49,132 nucleotides of DNA from Candidatus Saccharimonadota bacterium (GTDB lineage Bacteria > Patescibacteriota > Saccharimonadia > Saccharimonadales > Saccharimonadaceae). The translations under genes and the position numbers were made by a program. Location of the stretch: the NCBI GenBank assembly GCA_010014665.1, contig RZYF01000003.1:1-49132 (forward strand), given 5' to 3'. The notes beneath the pieces were generated by a model, which saw only the letters and a list, made by a program, of their open reading frames with translations, was not told the origin of the DNA and did no database searches. Shown here in pieces: positions 26,882 through 44,494 of this stretch (position 1 is its first letter; each line of letters begins with the position of its first letter).

Positions 26882-28246
26882 CTACTCAGTTCGCAGGGCT
26901 TCTATAGGATCTAGTTTGGCAGCTTTACGCGCTGGAAACCAACCGGCCAAAACTGCAATAATTATTAACGCAATTAGTAGTTCGACAGCTGAAAGCCATT
27001 CGAACTCAAGAAGATAATTACCTTCTCCTAAATTCAAGGTACTAGTAATCCAGGGATTTAAAAAGTATGTAGCTACCCAGGCCAAACCTACGCCTATAAC
27101 ACCACCGAAAAAGCCAATCCAAGCTGCTTCATAACGAAATAATTGAGATATCTTACGACTACGCATACCTAGCGCCTTCATGAGACCAATTTGACTAGTT
27201 CTCTCTAATACACTGATATACTGCGTATTGACAATCCCAAATACGCTAGCAACCAGAGCTAATACACCAAAACCGGTAACAATGTATTGCAATACATCTA
27301 CAAATTGAAATATTATTTGTTGCACATCCTCAGCAGTCATGGCATATATCTTGTTGTCTTTTTCTAGCCTTTGCTTGAGATCTACAGGGCTCACGCCATC
27401 TCGTGCACGAACGGTGATAGTGTAATATTTTCGATAATCATTAGTACCTTTTGTGGTATATTCTGATATTTCATATGCAGTACTGGAATCAATTACCACT
27501 GATCCATTGCCACCAGTTAGCGAGGATGAGCCATTTTCTCTAATAACCGCCCGGACTACGAACGTGACATCCTTTGTTTGACCCTGCATACGCTCTTCTA
27601 CCGCTTTAGCCCCTCCCGTCATGAAAAGTTGAGTTAGTTCTTCCTGAGAAGGTTGATTAGGCAAACTTTCTATTGTAACTATTACTTTTTTACCAATCAA
27701 CTCACTAGGCTTGAGCCCTAAAGTATCAGAGAAACCTTCTGGCAACACAATATCATTTTCGCCAATTCTCGTACCTTTTGAGGGTAGATTTCCCGCCACT
27801 ACGTCGTTTCTTATAAACGAATCATATCGCGATATGTTCATGGTATATTTCGTTTCACTACCTTCAAATCTAGTGTACTTGGCAGCTATCTGATAAAACG
27901 GCTCCACCCAATCCACGTCATTACGGTCTCGTAACGCATCTATATCTGCTTGAGTCACTAGATCGAGACCTGAACGGGCATCTCTACTATCGCTATATTC
28001 CTGTAACGGTGCGGATCCAACTCGGTTACCTTGGTTGAGCGATTTGTCTTTGAAAGCAATCAGGGTTTGTGGGTCAATGTTTGACTCTATGAGATTTTTT
28101 GAATATTCCCTAGTACCAGCCCCGGCCGCCAAACTCATCATAATCGTAAAAGATCCTACAGCAATAGCTAAACTTGTCAGAATAGTACGACCTTTTGATC
28201 GCCCGATATTTCGTCCAGCTCTATTCATAATATCTAATGTTTTCAC
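26882..28246 (-). CDS. MacB/FtsX-like ABC transporter permease
   Basis: The 454-residue protein has an N-terminal span (about residues 20-45), a large extracellular MacB-PCD-like domain (about 50-315) and three C-terminal spans in the FtsX fold. The conserved cytoplasmic loop ERTSQIGLMKALGMRSRKI precedes the last two spans, and the end reads ARKAAKLDPIEALR. Family members work by mechanotransmission rather than a classic channel. It overlaps the ATPase gene by 4 nt. With no periplasm or outer-membrane partner expected, export or removal of a membrane-embedded substrate such as a peptide is plausible but unproved. Confidence 0.9.
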   Translation of the reverse strand: MKTLDIMNRAGRNIGRSKGRTILTSLAIAVGSFTIMMSLAAGAGTREYSKNLIESNIDPQTLIAFKDKSLNQGNRVGSAPLQEYSDSRDARSGLDLVTQADIDALRDRNDVDWVEPFYQIAAKYTRFEGSETKYTMNISRYDSFIRNDVVAGNLPSKGTRIGENDIVLPEGFSDTLGLKPSELIGKKVIVTIESLPNQPSQEELTQLFMTGGAKAVEERMQGQTKDVTFVVRAVIRENGSSSLTGGNGSVVIDSSTAYEISEYTTKGTNDYRKYYTITVRARDGVSPVDLKQRLEKDNKIYAMTAEDVQQIIFQFVDVLQYIVTGFGVLALVASVFGIVNTQYISVLERTSQIGLMKALGMRSRKISQLFRYEAAWIGFFGGVIGVGLAWVATYFLNPWITSTLNLGEGNYLLEFEWLSAVELLIALIIIAVLAGWFPARKAAKLDPIEALRTE

Positions 28247-28980
28247 TGGATAATTCTCCTAGCTTTCGTGTTTTTTTGTGAGTACTTTGTTTTAACAGAT
28301 TTGCCCCAATCTCGCTCGCTTACAACATGACCGTCACGTAAATATATTTGTTGTTCACATTTATTAGCCAAATCAAAGTCATGGGTTACTACTACCAGGG
28401 TAGCTCCGTAATTCTTCGAATAATCAAACAATAGTTTTTCAATAACCGCCCCAGTAGCACTGTCAAGATTACCGGTTGGCTCATCAGCAAAGAGAATCTT
28501 AGGATCGTTAACGATAGCTCTAGCAATTGCTAACCGCTGTTTTTGACCACCCGATAAGTTTTTCGCTTTTTGTTTGGCTTTATCTTCGAGTTCTACTGCT
28601 CGTAGCGCTGCCATAATCTTTTCTTTACGCTGTCGATTAGGTACGTCAGCTATCTCGAGTGGCATACTAACGTTTTCGTAACACGTCTCGTTACCCTGAA
28701 CAAAAAAACTTTGGAATATAAAACTCATATCTTGAGCTCGAAACTTGTCGACTTCTTTTTTCTTAAGCATAGTAATATCACGACCGCCCATAATAACACT
28801 TCCGCTTGTCGCCGTATCTAAACCACTCATTATATGCATTAGAGTACTTTTACCACTACCACTTTTGCCGACTATCGCCAGCCTTGTGCCTTCGTCTATA
28901 CTAAAGCTAACGTCATCTAGAGCAACAAACGTATTGTCTTTTTTCCCATAAATCTTCCCAATTTGTCTAATTTCTATCAT
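28243..28980 (-). CDS. ABC transporter ATPase (MacB/LolD type)
   Basis: The 245-residue protein has Walker A GKSGSGKST, the Q-loop IFQSFFVQ, the signature LSGGQKQRLAIARAI, Walker B ILFADEPTGNLD and the H-loop VVTHD. The LFADEPTGNLDS wording and its size are typical of MacB/LolD ATPases that partner FtsX-type permeases. The permease overlaps it by 4 nt. The ATG lies 6 bp after a TATACT box, and the gene is divergent from the sensor-kinase-like gene, sharing a short intergenic region. Confidence 0.94.
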   Translation of the reverse strand: MIEIRQIGKIYGKKDNTFVALDDVSFSIDEGTRLAIVGKSGSGKSTLMHIMSGLDTATSGSVIMGGRDITMLKKKEVDKFRAQDMSFIFQSFFVQGNETCYENVSMPLEIADVPNRQRKEKIMAALRAVELEDKAKQKAKNLSGGQKQRLAIARAIVNDPKILFADEPTGNLDSATGAVIEKLLFDYSKNYGATLVVVTHDFDLANKCEQQIYLRDGHVVSERDWGKSVKTKYSQKNTKARRIIQ

Positions 28981-28992: not shown

Positions 28993-29071
28993 TAGGAACG
29001 CGTTTCATAAAAAAATAGACTTGAAACGTTTGCGTTTTCGCAGTAAAGTTATTCTAGCGGTAGAAATATCC

Positions 29072-31054
29072 ATGAAACAAATATCATCAATAAAATCTCT
29101 TATACTAAGGTCAATGCCTGTCATAGTGGCATTATCATTAGCTTTTCTGGGCATGCGTGCGTTTGCAGCCAGCACGACCACCGTTCAGGTTAGTGTTGAG
29201 CCTATGGTGGCGGACGTTTGTCTAAATATTGATGGGGTACAGTCATCCGTACCAGAAGGCATGCTAGTAGATTTAGACGGAAACTGCTACACACCAATAA
29301 CTCCTCCTCAGCCGCCCGAACCAATTGATTTATGTTCTAACCTTACGGGTATACAAGAAATCCTACCAGACGGATATTATCGGATTGACTCTGGCCAATG
29401 TTATCTGCAACCACCTCCCCCAGCTATACCGAACGATGTCTGTTTAAATATCGATGGGATACAAGCGTCTGTACCACCTGGGCATTATTTAGATACTTCC
29501 AATAACTGTTTGCCAGCCCCTAACGAAGAAGACATTTGCTTGAATATACCTGGAACCCAGGAGACAGTGCCCGAAGATATGATAATACGAAACGGTAATT
29601 GTTATACACCTGATCCTCCGACAGGGACTGCGTCCCCTGGTAATACTTCTACGGATAGCGATCAGTCTGTTATTGGCGAAGAAGAAAAATTAAAAAATGT
29701 TCCGGATGTCTTGCAACCAGCAGCAAAAGTATTAGTTGAAGCTTTGCCGAAAGAAACTGTTCAATTCTTTAAGGCTCTGCCTGAAGAAACTGCTCAAGAA
29801 ATGCCAAAATACATATTGATTTTAGCGCTTATACTTATGTTTATACCTATACTCCAAGCTATCCGTGAAACAATATTTCATAGACAAATTGCAATTATCC
29901 TAAAAAGAGAACGGAGTATCGCTGAACAAAAAGATAACTTCATTGCACTTGCCTCACATTACCTCAGAACCCCACTAACTGTTATGCGTAACGGTCTAGA
30001 AATGATGCTATCAATCAAGGAGGTGTCAGAGGAAAACACCCAAGATCTATCTAAGACGCTTTCAGGCCTCGACACAGATATCGCTCAAGTCCTTAGTAAT
30101 ATCGAACAGGATACCTCGTTGAAGAATATTAATTTACCACCAGAAGAAAAAGTACCGAGTGTTCTCTCCTCTGTCTATTTATGGACTCCAATTGTAATGT
30201 CTATCATACTTACATTTCTCGCCAACTTTTTCATTGGAGTCGTCGGTAATAAAGAAATAAGTACTAACAATAGTATGGTGCAGGTCCTTATAGTCGCCGG
30301 TTTAGTATTGGGAGTATATCTACTTGCAAGAAATATTTTCATCCAAAAGCACCTGAAAGAAAGAAGTCAACAATTAATAGAACACGAGAAGACTATCGAC
30401 GAAATTCGCAACGCCCTGATTAGTCAACAAACTGAAATTCTAAAACGTAGACTTGACGATATCAATAGAGAGAAAGCACCACTAGAACCTGCCCCGTCAT
30501 ATCATATATTTGAAGATGGCTATATGCGTTTTGTTCGCATGCTTGAAAAATTCCTGTTACTAGGCCAAATCAGGACTGGTGCTAATAGAACTGTGGAAGG
30601 AGTCAATCTACGAGACGCTGTGGAGCAAGTCCTGTTTAATTACCAGAGTGATTTAGCTACCAAAGATATCCGAGTAATCAATGCAACTTCAAACTCAAAA
30701 ATAATTCAAAATGAAGTACTTTTCAATTTTGTGTTAAATTCACTTATAGACAACGCTATAAAATTTAACAAAGAAGGTGGCATTATAACTATCTCAAACA
30801 ATACCAAGGGCCGAACAATCAAAATAGAAATCAGCGATAACGGTATTGGAATCGACAATAACAAACTTGATCAGCTATTTAAGCCCTTTTCACGAGCTAG
30901 CTCGGCTGTCGAATTCAACTACGAAGGCCTCGGGTTTAGCCTGTTCCTAAATAAACTTATCATGGAATACACGGGTGGTTCAATCGCTGCTCAAACAAAC
31001 CCAAATGGTGGCACGCGAATGATCGTAGACACTCCTGTTAAAGTAGTCGTTTAG
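29072..31054 (+). CDS. Histidine-kinase-like membrane protein with extracellular Cys repeats and split kinase core
   Basis: I chose the ATG at 29072 (660 residues). It begins a clean signal peptide ending near FAAS, and a TTGAAA-17-TAAAGT promoter lies just upstream; the TTG at 29021 is less likely. Outside there are four repeats of about 36 residues with the form CLNIxGxQxxVPxG...C (Cys pairs at about 50/72, 88/110, 124/146, 156/177). Then come a span (about 247-267), an H-box-like SHYLRTPLTVM with His near 296, two further spans (about 370-390 and 402-423), a coiled coil and a HATPase domain (N-box NSLIDNAIKFN, G1 DNGIGID, then GLGFSLFL). Placing two spans between the H-box and the ATPase is unusual, and the acidic residue after His is Tyr. 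No response regulator is adjacent. Confidence 0.8.
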   Translation: MKQISSIKSLILRSMPVIVALSLAFLGMRAFAASTTTVQVSVEPMVADVCLNIDGVQSSVPEGMLVDLDGNCYTPITPPQPPEPIDLCSNLTGIQEILPDGYYRIDSGQCYLQPPPPAIPNDVCLNIDGIQASVPPGHYLDTSNNCLPAPNEEDICLNIPGTQETVPEDMIIRNGNCYTPDPPTGTASPGNTSTDSDQSVIGEEEKLKNVPDVLQPAAKVLVEALPKETVQFFKALPEETAQEMPKYILILALILMFIPILQAIRETIFHRQIAIILKRERSIAEQKDNFIALASHYLRTPLTVMRNGLEMMLSIKEVSEENTQDLSKTLSGLDTDIAQVLSNIEQDTSLKNINLPPEEKVPSVLSSVYLWTPIVMSIILTFLANFFIGVVGNKEISTNNSMVQVLIVAGLVLGVYLLARNIFIQKHLKERSQQLIEHEKTIDEIRNALISQQTEILKRRLDDINREKAPLEPAPSYHIFEDGYMRFVRMLEKFLLLGQIRTGANRTVEGVNLRDAVEQVLFNYQSDLATKDIRVINATSNSKIIQNEVLFNFVLNSLIDNAIKFNKEGGIITISNNTKGRTIKIEISDNGIGIDNNKLDQLFKPFSRASSAVEFNYEGLGFSLFLNKLIMEYTGGSIAAQTNPNGGTRMIVDTPVKVVV

Positions 31055-31107: not shown

Positions 31108-32331
31108 TTAATTTTTAGACGGCCTTTTGCCTATCGAATTATTCACAGGAGTATTAGCTTCACTTAATGAACTGATTTTCTGCGTATCTTTATATGAATG
31201 TTCTTTGAATTGATGTCGTAGGTTATAAATAGCCATACCTACACCTGTCACAAATGCGATTAAGCCAATTAAAACGCCCACTATTGGGACTGCAATTAAT
31301 AAACCGAGCGCAGCCGCTCCAGCCGTAGCATGAAGTATCATGTTCGAAGACCTACCTTCAAACATCCAACGGCCTAAGTAATATGAAGTTAGCGGAAATG
31401 CTGTAGTAAATATTACCGCATAGCCAACAATTAAAAGTGGTATTATTGGCGCACCTATTATTGTAAAAATAAGAACTATTAGAATCGGAATACTTAGTAA
31501 TATAGCCGCTAGTCCTACCAGAAAAACAAACCCAAGCTTAGGTAAAGATAGTGCAGTCGTCTCGCGAACATTACGCGGCACAATTAGCACCATAGCTATT
31601 GTCAAGATAACGAGGAAGAATATACCACTCGCTATATTTAATATCGAATCAGCGACTGTTGGTGTCGTCTCACGCGATATAGATTCATGACGTATAGCCT
31701 GACCAGCAACCGTACCTTTATAAATTTCTGCATCATCTTGACTCCAATATTGCACATCACCACCAACCCTCGCGCCCTCCGAAACAACAAGTTTAGTAGT
31801 CTCAACCTCAACATGACGACCAACCAAACCATTTATTTCTATTGATTCACTACCGGCTCGTATGTCACGTTGAACAACCCCGTTAATTCTAATTGAAGAC
31901 CCGGCTAATAAAGCGTCTTGTTGAATTACAGCCTTTTTATCAATAGTTAATGTATTAGCAGCTGCAGTCAAATTACCACTAGCCATACCGTTAATCGTTA
32001 TTATACTGCCCGCTACACGTATATCGCCGTCTACCTTGCCTTCAATAGTTAGGTTTCCACCAACACATATGACATCGCCGTCAATTTCTCCATATATATG
32101 TACTGTTTCTGCTGCACAATATAGATCGCCGTTTACCTTGCCTGCGACCGTAATTGTTTCACCAACCATAAACACCGCGCCATCGACAGTCTCGTTAGGG
32201 GCCACAGTAAATACACCGTTATCTGAAATAGCCACCCTACTCGAAGCTAATACTGGTACCGTCCAAGCAATTATCACAAGTCCAGCAAGAACGGTAAAAA
32301 CTGCCAATTTCGTAAACAGGGTTTTTTTCAT
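31108..32331 (-). CDS. Membrane protein with extracytoplasmic bactofilin-like beta-helix
   Basis: The 407-residue protein has a signal peptide, then about 160 residues of short repeats (GKVNGDLYCAAETV, GEIDGDVICVGGNL, GKVDGDIRVAGS...) typical of bactofilin/polymer-forming beta-helices. A linker and about four membrane spans (residues 225-375) follow, then a polar tail. Classic bactofilins are cytoplasmic filaments; here the helix follows a signal peptide and should be outside. Its start overlaps a 56-residue gene by 4 nt and has a strong AGGAGGGGAG site. A wall or cell-shape role is plausible by analogy only. Confidence 0.82.
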   Translation of the reverse strand: MKKTLFTKLAVFTVLAGLVIIAWTVPVLASSRVAISDNGVFTVAPNETVDGAVFMVGETITVAGKVNGDLYCAAETVHIYGEIDGDVICVGGNLTIEGKVDGDIRVAGSIITINGMASGNLTAAANTLTIDKKAVIQQDALLAGSSIRINGVVQRDIRAGSESIEINGLVGRHVEVETTKLVVSEGARVGGDVQYWSQDDAEIYKGTVAGQAIRHESISRETTPTVADSILNIASGIFFLVILTIAMVLIVPRNVRETTALSLPKLGFVFLVGLAAILLSIPILIVLIFTIIGAPIIPLLIVGYAVIFTTAFPLTSYYLGRWMFEGRSSNMILHATAGAAALGLLIAVPIVGVLIGLIAFVTGVGMAIYNLRHQFKEHSYKDTQKISSLSEANTPVNNSIGKRPSKN

Positions 32332-32664: not shown

Positions 32665-33591
32665 CTACAATTTTATAAACTTGATTTGTTTACTAATTTG
32701 AGCATAGAGTTCAATTGAAGTATCAAAAAGTTCACTCGCCACCTTATCGTTTAGGACTTTGTAGCGCTGGACTAACCATATTGCATTATCCTGAATTTCA
32801 ATATCAGTTTCTGGTAACTTATAATACAACACTTCCAATACATCCGGCGTAAACACCTGTAGCGCAGTTGACTGGTCGGATCTGGCCGCATATGCGTCAT
32901 AATGCGCACCGTTTACGCCCTCAAATTGGAATCTCATATCACTTTCGTACCTAGTTGTCATGTTCGACGCACGAGCCTTCTCATTACTCCTAGCATTAAT
33001 AACTATATGCGGCAACGAGACTGGAAGCTCGAGCTTAATAACAGTATCCATTTTCCATTCTCGCCAGCGCAGCAGACCACCTTCTTTGTAACATCTAGTA
33101 AAGAACACTATTCCGATTCCGTTTATGTTTCTTGTTAGTGGAGTCGATGACCAATTTGATACATTTTTGTTAAAGCTAGGTACCGTCGTTAACTCTTTCG
33201 CACGTTTTCTATCTATTTCTCTATGAAAATGATTCAATTTCGCAAAATTACTCCATGCATAATTCATCCATATCCAGGGAATAACTTTTACAACGTACAC
33301 GGCAACAATTAGGTATAAGATTATATTAAACTCTGAGCAACTACCACTTGCGTCGTTACCACAAGAATATGACTCAAAGAAATTATATGATTCTGTCGTT
33401 GTAGGAGCGGCTTGAAATGAGCTATTCTGTAATGCAATAATAACTATAATAGCCCAACCTACTACCACGCCTAATACAGCTAGAAATACTAGTCGCAAGA
33501 GTATCATTTTTGCGCGACCTATCCAGATATATAATAAAAACAATTTAGGAAAGTTTCTTAACGGAGCATAGTCAACAGTTAGCGGACTCAT
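32665..33591 (-). CDS. Membrane protein of unknown function
   Basis: The 308-residue protein has two predicted spans (about residues 30-54 and 87-112) separated by a short loop with two Cys (SYSCGNDASGSCSEF). A larger soluble C-terminal part of about 190 residues is probably cytoplasmic. That part (around NINGIGIVFF, then the PDVLEVLYYKLPETDIEI region) faintly resembles the DUF3137-type domain, which I offer only as a comparison. It begins 3 nt after the lysS stop, so it is read with lysS. No catalytic motif is evident. Confidence 0.75.
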   Translation of the reverse strand: MSPLTVDYAPLRNFPKLFLLYIWIGRAKMILLRLVFLAVLGVVVGWAIIVIIALQNSSFQAAPTTTESYNFFESYSCGNDASGSCSEFNIILYLIVAVYVVKVIPWIWMNYAWSNFAKLNHFHREIDRKRAKELTTVPSFNKNVSNWSSTPLTRNINGIGIVFFTRCYKEGGLLRWREWKMDTVIKLELPVSLPHIVINARSNEKARASNMTTRYESDMRFQFEGVNGAHYDAYAARSDQSTALQVFTPDVLEVLYYKLPETDIEIQDNAIWLVQRYKVLNDKVASELFDTSIELYAQISKQIKFIKL

Positions 33592-42742: not shown

Positions 42743-43330
42743 TTACTGTTTTGCAAAATGTTGCACGACAATAATCTGTTTGCTCGAACCGTTAAACTCG
42801 AAAGCCTTGCGCGCACATAACCCCTCGGCAGTATAATCACCCAAAATGTTCTCTTTGTGCTCTTCACTAACCATCCAGCCCGCTACCACAGCGGTTGGAT
42901 CAGTAAAACCATAAGCTAGGTTTTCACCTGACTTAGAATATTGGACACCGGCTCGCTGAAAAAAGACCCAAGGCTCATCCCCGTCAGGAGTATTATGAGA
43001 CCAGTAATTTCGCTTCACCATGTCGTCAGCTTTTAAACAGGCGGATTCGGCAAGTTTGACACTATATTCCAAAAAAGGTTTTCCAACTTTTTCACGCTGA
43101 GAATTGATTAGTTTATGCAATTGGACAATATCTATATTCTTTTCGAACAAATCATCAGTAGACGAACTATGGTCACTAGAAAATTCACTTAGCGCCTGAG
43201 CATAAGTAGCTTCAATCTTCTTCTCTTTGTCAGATATCATTATCGACTGAAAAATAGTTATACCGAGCAATACGAATACAGCCGGTGCAAGTATTATCGA
43301 TAGTATTTTAGTGTTTATTGAGAAACGCAT
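42743..43330 (-). CDS. Secreted CAP-domain protein (SCP/YkwD-like)
   Basis: The 195-residue protein has an N-terminal membrane segment (about residues 8-30) and a CAP domain: LINSQREKVGKPFLEYSVKLAESACLKADDM, the YWSHNTPDG segment with a conserved His, GENLAYGF with the conserved Glu, and VAGWMVSEEHKENIL with the second His. YkwD-like CAP proteins are extracellular and of uncertain activity. It probably sits on or outside the membrane. It follows the LysM-domain gene by 9 nt, so the two are likely co-expressed surface proteins. Confidence 0.9.
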   Translation of the reverse strand: MRFSINTKILSIILAPAVFVLLGITIFQSIMISDKEKKIEATYAQALSEFSSDHSSSTDDLFEKNIDIVQLHKLINSQREKVGKPFLEYSVKLAESACLKADDMVKRNYWSHNTPDGDEPWVFFQRAGVQYSKSGENLAYGFTDPTAVVAGWMVSEEHKENILGDYTAEGLCARKAFEFNGSSKQIIVVQHFAKQ

Positions 43331-43339
43331 ATTAACCTC

Positions 43340-44494
43340 CTAGTTTCGTTTAGGCACATAAATTAACTGACCTTCTTGTAAACTGTCCGAAGAGCTTATT
43401 TTGTTTAATGTAGATAATTTAGACACTGACACATCATACTTGCTAGCCAGAAGTTCCAAAGTATCCCCACTTACAACGGTGTATTTAGTCCAAGCGAGTC
43501 CCGGGTTCCCTAGAGAATTTTTAGCTTCATGGTTGGCCTTATATTTCTGTTGTCGTATCCAGACAAAGAAGCCAAATATAAGCGATATTCCAAATACTAA
43601 ACTTACCAGTGCCCAAGGGGATGGCCAAACAAAATATGTTATCTCCTGACTCGTATCGTATACTAGCTGACTCTTGTCATACGTGCCGTACACACCTGCT
43701 CTCTTGTCATAGGCTATCGAAGCTTTAGCTGAAAGAAAACCTCCCCAAAACGACTTCGTCCTATCATCAAGCATCAGACTAAGCTTTGAATCACCTATCA
43801 CAGTATATTTGCCGCCCTCCTCTTTAATAATATTACCGAATATATTTGAAGTAGTAATCTTAATATCTACATCGGCAGAAACATTACCATTGTTTTTTAT
43901 TTTTATATCAAATTTTGATGACTTTGCTGATTGAACCCTATTGAATGAATCTATTTTTACTGTACGATAAATATTACCGGGCACAATTATAGCTATGCGT
44001 ACAGCCTGCGGAGTTATAGCTTGTTTCAAATTTGAAATCTGATTTTCAGTAGCTACAGGCTGTATGACTATACACCCATTATATTCACCTGCATCAATTT
44101 TTTCCGGCATAGTTACATCGAAACCTATAGTAATATCACTTCGGGCAGGTAAAATGACTCGGCTTTTTTCTAACTCAACCCAGTCTCCGACCCCATCTCG
44201 TTCAACGTTCTGCTCCTCACAAGTATATGATCCAATGTTAGTTAAAGTACCATCGACAGGATAGATTTCCACCGTCTGTTCTTTATCTGAACTATTACTT
44301 AAAAATATCCTGTCAGTTTTTACTTCCCCAGGTTCTAAGGTATACAGAAAAATAGACTGACTTCTTGGGTTATCGGAAGAAAGATTAGCCGGCCTCCCCC
44401 CTACCATCGCTGAAGCATCCGCCAAAGGATTTATGGAAATACTCGCTATCCAGAGCGCAAGTAATAGTACCAATTTAACTCCTCTTCGATTCAC
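43340..44494 (-). CDS. DUF916-like surface protein with transmembrane span and C-terminal LysM
   Basis: The 384-residue protein starts at GTG (with a GGGAG site) and has a signal peptide. Two Ig-like beta domains follow (residues about 40-285), with FLYTLEPGEVKTDRIFLSN and the VTMPEKIDAGEYNGCIVIQP segment typical of DUF916/WxL-interacting proteins. A membrane span (about 289-313), a basic stop-transfer stretch RQQKYK and a C-terminal LysM (about 336-381; YTVVSGDTLELLASKYDVS) end it. By the positive-inside rule, the LysM would be cytoplasmic, away from peptidoglycan. It is read with the CAP gene. Confidence 0.82.
   Translation of the reverse strand: MNRRGVKLVLLLALWIASISINPLADASAMVGGRPANLSSDNPRSQSIFLYTLEPGEVKTDRIFLSNSSDKEQTVEIYPVDGTLTNIGSYTCEEQNVERDGVGDWVELEKSRVILPARSDITIGFDVTMPEKIDAGEYNGCIVIQPVATENQISNLKQAITPQAVRIAIIVPGNIYRTVKIDSFNRVQSAKSSKFDIKIKNNGNVSADVDIKITTSNIFGNIIKEEGGKYTVIGDSKLSLMLDDRTKSFWGGFLSAKASIAYDKRAGVYGTYDKSQLVYDTSQEITYFVWPSPWALVSLVFGISLIFGFFVWIRQQKYKANHEAKNSLGNPGLAWTKYTVVSGDTLELLASKYDVSVSKLSTLNKISSSDSLQEGQLIYVPKRN

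Follow-up and report, generated by a model that had tools for sequence, protein, structure and literature searches.

The gene at positions 29,072–31,054 of the window (the whole stretch of DNA that was analysed, 49,132 nucleotides of contig RZYF01000003.1, our C31, from a 928-kb metagenome-assembled Candidatus Saccharimonadota genome) encodes a divergent protein of the HisKA lineage that lacks two of the defining features of that lineage: an acid after the phosphoacceptor His and the direct fusion of the His-bearing DHp to the ATPase. The segment between its third membrane span and the ATPase is, to judge from alignments and a structural model, a second DHp, and the architecture is that of a conserved family, undescribed in the open-licence literature, with exchangeable ectodomains and spread across Patescibacteria. 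The reading toward which we lean, with modest confidence, is that of a receptor histidine kinase with two DHp in tandem, split in cis like CheA, whose ATPase would phosphorylate the first of them (DHp1).

Gene layout and the second DHp

The features are collected in Table 1, and residues are given in P0001 numbering, which is counted from the TTG at 29,021 and makes the ATG at 29,072 residue 18. The frame (29,021/29,072–31,054, forward strand) is open and gives 660 aa counted from that ATG, which opens a signal-peptide-like stretch; therefore, the start chosen in the initial annotation is right. The domain order is signal peptide, four 25-aa Cys-pair repeats, TM1 (263–281), DHp1, TM2–TM3 (approximately 385–409 and 418–436), DHp2 and HATPase. 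The Pfam scan returned only HisKA (303–348, 5.8e-6, which is 0.2 bits below the curated cut-off) and HATPase_c (569–673, 7e-19), and the ATPase has its N, G1, F and G2 boxes, with the third Gly of G2 replaced by Ser/Asp. The initial annotation had placed one span ahead of the H-box SHYLRTP, a Tyr after the His and two more spans between H-box and ATPase; all of this was borne out, and in the topology check the two further spans were seen in 35/35 homologues.

Table 1. Positions in the window of the kinase gene, its parts and the neighbouring ABC genes.
Feature	Position	Strand	Basis
Tandem-DHp receptor histidine kinase gene (candidate function)	29072..31054	+	ORF, Pfam matches, full-length homologues
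Signal peptide MKQISS...GMRAFA, probable cleavage after AFA	29072..29167	+	Hydropathy, sequence
Cys-pair repeat 1	29213..29287	+	Profile A4, E 2.7e-13
Cys-pair repeat 2	29327..29401	+	Profile A4, E 3.8e-12
Cys-pair repeat 3	29435..29509	+	Profile A4, E 7.0e-14
Cys-pair repeat 4	29531..29602	+	Profile A4, E 1.2e-12
TM1, out to in; runs on into DHp1 helix 1 in the model	29807..29863	+	Hydropathy, AlphaFold2
DHp1, full hairpin with H-box SHYLRTP	29873..30130	+	HisKA match, ordinary-kinase profile, AlphaFold2 helices
His313 codon, putative phosphoacceptor	29957..29959	+	Kept in 34/35
TM2, in to out	30173..30247	+	Model, span analysis of homologues
TM3, out to in; runs on into DHp2 helix 1 in the model	30272..30328	+	Model, span analysis
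DHp2, degenerate hairpin lacking the His, with Glu472 in its place	30329..30577	+	Alignments, profile, AlphaFold2, PDB-sequence search
CA (HATPase) domain	30596..31036	+	Pfam, Foldseek, alignment
N-box Asn578 codon, inside the CA domain	30752..30754	+	Alignment
MacB/LolD-like ABC ATPase, divergent neighbour outside the system	28243..28980	-	Pfam
MacB-like permease (FtsX + MacB_PCD), neighbour outside the system	26882..28246	-	Pfam

The stretch after TM3 had initially been taken for a coiled coil acting as a spacer, and it is better described as helix 1 of a second, degenerate DHp hairpin that is fused to the ATPase. It follows that the loss of DHp–ATPase adjacency, which was also claimed, stands for the His-bearing DHp and falls for the ATPase itself, since the latter still adjoins a DHp, the second and His-less one. 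When 14 ordinary kinases of the order were combined into a profile, it matched residues 453–674 in one contiguous stretch, from DHp helix 1 through the whole ATPase (E 6e-46), and it matched the same chain a second time at DHp1, covering both helices (E 1e-11). In the AlphaFold2 model (monomer, 12 sequences, mean pLDDT 71 and pTM 0.45 for the full model; add 17 for P0001 numbering), helices 238–314 and 320–345 are followed by TM2 at 368–391, helices 398–467 and 477–502 and then the ATPase, that is, two hairpins with the same plan, in each of which the long helix 1 emerges straight from a span. Foldseek placed the DHp-CA of HK853 over 240 columns (target of 237 residues). When PDB sequences were searched by profile, positions 222–447 of the profile (DHp2 plus ATPase) matched the H260A chain of HK853 in one stretch, and the HK853 chain with the wild-type His (4jas) was matched in two pieces, DHp1 and DHp2-CA. 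Additionally, TM1-DHp1 and TM3-DHp2 aligned in register over about 110 columns with a score of 38.6; none of 150 column permutations exceeded 18.6, and the reversed control gave 17.0. In the circular-shift control, small shifts preserved the alignment. At the DHp2 position that corresponds to the His of DHp1, the window protein has Glu472, and none of the 38 aligned members has a His.

A conserved family and its catalytic residues

Orthologues with the same Cys repeats, 38–46% identical, were found in genomes G001, G002, G027, G049 and G050, with further ones elsewhere. Profile matches (threshold E < 1e-60, counted by hand from the match table), almost all of them full-length, occurred in 27 of the 393 sampled genomes of the order (~7%), several of which carried three or more copies; the shortest open frame, a partial copy, had 287 aa and the longest 6781 aa. 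When 333 genomes of the phylum were sampled, four additional ones with members came from outside the order, one from elsewhere in the class and three from beyond it. The named relatives, Candidatus Saccharibacteria MAGs, come from a laboratory reactor, from termite-gut-type samples (the termite origin of the Nt/Th/Emb isolates is presumed by us from their codes) and from UBA assemblies. A search of viral contigs gave no homologue, and a viral origin was rejected on this ground. A single contig carries at least four members, which differ in their ectodomains (fn3, DUF285), in about 35 kb (L098, G113:C12:194000–228500).

In the alignment of 38 copies, 35 of which cover the H-box, every one of the 35 had two strong spans between the His and the N-box, with short loops of 3–16 residues and positive-inside charge, compared with 0/14 ordinary kinases of the same order. 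The distance from His to N-box was 255–288 residues in the family and 116–130 in the ordinary kinases, and in a tree of the ATPase half a single branch (96/99) parted the two groups. The suggestion of a new sensor type made in the initial annotation is thus supported, given that many genomes share the architecture and that the whole of it is spanned by no family model; in open-licence papers, we found no description of this family.

With respect to catalysis, the phosphoacceptor His was kept in 34 of the 35 members covering the H-box, as was the HxxxT/S motif (34/35), and the His was also present in eight further members examined. The residue after the His was Tyr in 28 members, His in four, Asn in two and Phe in one, and Asp or Glu in 0/35. 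The N-box Asn, equivalent to CpxA Asn360, was retained in 37/38 members, and the equivalent of CpxA Asn356 was Ser, Thr, Ala, Gly or Gln in 37/38, as against Asn in 14/14 ordinary kinases. In CpxA, Glu249 follows the His, has been proposed as the general base and makes contact with Asn356 in the ATPase, this pair activating the His, and Asn360 is essential (PMC3904827). Thus, the Glu/Asn dyad was lost as a pair while the acceptor His and the ATP-binding Asn stayed, which implies an altered or slower phosphorylation step across the family. The H-box core, N-box and G2 were the most conserved segments (mean pairwise identity 0.46–0.50), whereas helix 2 of DHp1 and the helices of DHp2 reached 0.17–0.22. 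In the members of G050 and G058 the ATPase motifs are degraded and DHp1 is intact with its His, which hints that the His may be usable without an ATPase in cis. The G058 protein (L057, G058:C2, ~2900–23268) is one open frame of 6781 aa that ends in the kinase module; its N-box, G1 and G2 are lost and its H-box SHHLRTP is intact.

Ectodomains and gene neighbourhood

The four Cys-paired repeats noticed initially are real: the eight Cys of the protein fall two to each repeat, and each unit was recovered with an E value of 7e-14 to 4e-12. The 25-residue pattern is D-x-C-x-N-I-x-G-x-Q-x-x-V-P-x-G...C, with Pro-rich linkers between units, and in the model the array forms a chain of small beta-hairpins (pLDDT 85). 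Neither the Pfam scan of the kinase nor the PDB searches by sequence and by fold gave a significant match to it. The idea that the repeats are specific to the kinase was rejected, as unrelated surface proteins without kinases contain the unit too, and it is therefore a general surface module. Among other secreted or membrane-anchored Saccharibacteria proteins, it was seen at L045 (G044:C44), L027 (G070:C11) and L008 (G000:C65). The Cys-repeat array is the ectodomain of the window's own group. According to Pfam, elsewhere in the family the same kinase engine ends proteins with NHL repeats and He_PIG Ig domains (G082, 1583 aa), DUF11 (G092, 1421 aa), fn3 (G092, 2121 aa; G113, 2311 aa), RCC1 with IPT/TIG (at least 3052 aa), Ig/He_PIG (1613 aa) or DUF285 repeats (1496 aa).

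The gene is indeed divergent from a MacB-like ABC pair, as had been observed. This exporter had been put forward as a possible target, and the synteny check did not support it: the pair lies within 3 kb of the kinase in G001, G002 and G049, whose synteny with the window extends further, and the surroundings of the orthologues in G027, G347 and G050 lack it. Since the adjacency is not conserved, the exporter was rejected as a partner, and its position is best seen as regional synteny. It was also correct that no response regulator is adjacent, as the window contains none. In the flanks of orthologues no dedicated response regulator was found except at L110, where a divergently adjacent receiver gene is 62% related to the receiver at C150 of the window genome, a genome that has at least eight receivers. 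That genome still carries the usual kinase of the L110 receiver at another place, its frame broken by one stop, and we treat this receiver as a lead only. With regard to other genes of the window, a membrane protein with a bactofilin-like repeat region (PF04519) is encoded convergently with the kinase at 31,108–32,331 (−), and a homologue of it is also found near the kinase in G049 and G002. A 308-aa membrane protein at 32,665–33,591 (−) had no Pfam or NCBIfam match. Further away, a LysM protein (43,340–44,494, −) with a match to the WxL-interacting-protein peptidoglycan-binding domain (5e-9) adjoins a CAP-domain secreted protein (42,743–43,330).

Mechanism and relation to known kinases

In the usual description of histidine kinases, the DHp that bears the His adjoins its ATPase. 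With the HisKA-type kinases (PF00512 + PF02518; HK853, CpxA, EnvZ, WalK) the window family shares DHp hairpins, including a conserved phosphoacceptor His in one of them (sub-cut-off HisKA match, 34/35, model), a GHKL ATPase with N, G1, F and G2 boxes and the membrane receptor layout, and the DHp2-CA of the window protein superposes on the DHp-CA of HK853 in Foldseek. It differs from them in having two DHp, in carrying the His on the one that is not joined to the ATPase, with two spans between, and in the absence of the acid after the His together with the loss of the partner Asn. In split kinases such as CheA3/CheA4 of R. sphaeroides (PMC3591291), in which the acceptor domain is apart from the dimerisation and catalytic domains, and Hik36/Hik43 of Synechocystis (PMC7656254), in which the acceptor is separated from catalysis, the same parting is seen; however, the window family keeps both parts in one chain with membrane spans between them, and its acceptor is a DHp and not an HPt. 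Neither an HPt (P1) nor a CheW-like P5 was found by the Pfam scan, and the protein belongs neither to CheA nor to these split-kinase families. The tyrosine pseudo-kinase DivL of Caulobacter (Foldseek match 4q20) also has a non-canonical H-box region in a preserved kinase fold, but in DivL a Tyr replaces the His, whereas here a conserved His is present and is followed by Tyr.

In the cis-split receptor kinase that we favour, ligand or partner-cell contact on the Cys-repeat array would shift the TM1 helix, which continues unbroken into DHp1. DHp2 would dimerise and carry the ATPase, and the ATPase would phosphorylate His313 on the neighbouring DHp1 bundle, as P4 of CheA does with the separate P1, after which DHp1 would pass the phosphate to a response regulator encoded elsewhere in the genome. 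Splitting the acceptor from the ATPase would let the ectodomain gate the access of the ATPase to the His. This reading draws on the full-length homologues, the two alignments of the ordinary-kinase profile to one chain, the in-register DHp duplication, the modelled hairpins, the HK853 matches, the kept His and Asn, the conserved H-box core and N/G2 boxes, the branch in the ATPase tree and the span pair in all 35 members. Against it count the acid missing from 35/35, the Asn356 equivalent replaced in 37/38, the His kept beside a degenerate ATPase in G050 and G058, the flanks searched that yielded no dedicated response regulator, and a model that is a monomer only, with the scores given above.

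Phosphotransfer domains need no acid beside their His, and the HxxxT/S position is the phosphatase residue in HisKA kinases. Alternatively, DHp1 could be a phosphotransfer or phosphatase module tethered to the membrane; another kinase or a phosphorylated regulator would load its His, and the attached ATPase would serve as a nucleotide-dependent switch instead of a kinase for it. That all of the family has lost the catalytic acid, and nearly all the partner Asn, beside a kept His and HxxxT/S would agree with this, as would G050 and G058, which retain the His despite a degraded ATPase. Nevertheless, we regard it as rather unlikely, considering that the N-box Asn (37/38) and the G2 box are strongly conserved and that the ATPase is in the same chain in every member where the contig allows, only two having degraded motifs. 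Quite improbable is the proposal of the initial annotation that a pseudo-kinase transmits by shape, with neither His nor ATPase performing phosphorylation chemistry. The lost dyad, the flanks without a dedicated response regulator and the Foldseek match to DivL keep the idea alive, but the His persists in 34/35 highly diverged members while the next residue varies, the H-box core is among the most conserved segments, the N-box Asn is kept and a DivL-like loss of the His was not seen. Finally, a single ordinary DHp split by insertion of a two-span hairpin, with helix 1 before the spans pairing with helix 2 after them in one phosphoacceptor domain, would give the order His-helix, spans, helix 2, ATPase, but it is very improbable, as each hairpin owns two helices in the AlphaFold2 model, the ordinary profile covers both helices of DHp1 and, separately, all of DHp2-CA, and both 4jas matches use HK853 residues 69–77.

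Taking the cis-split receptor kinase further, we tentatively propose, at somewhat less than even confidence, that a Patescibacteria clade evolved an engine in which an ATPase on a His-less DHp phosphorylates a His on a separate, receptor-coupled DHp past a two-span hairpin and without the Glu-Asn dyad, and that this engine was joined to numerous giant ectodomains unrelated to one another, plausibly to recognise other cells. The separation of the His-bearing DHp from the ATPase within one chain, together with the dropped acid-asparagine pair, would test which parts of the kinase mechanism are essential. Host-dependent ultrasmall bacteria would moreover gain a receptor platform whose ectodomains can be exchanged, a candidate means of sensing contact with other cells.
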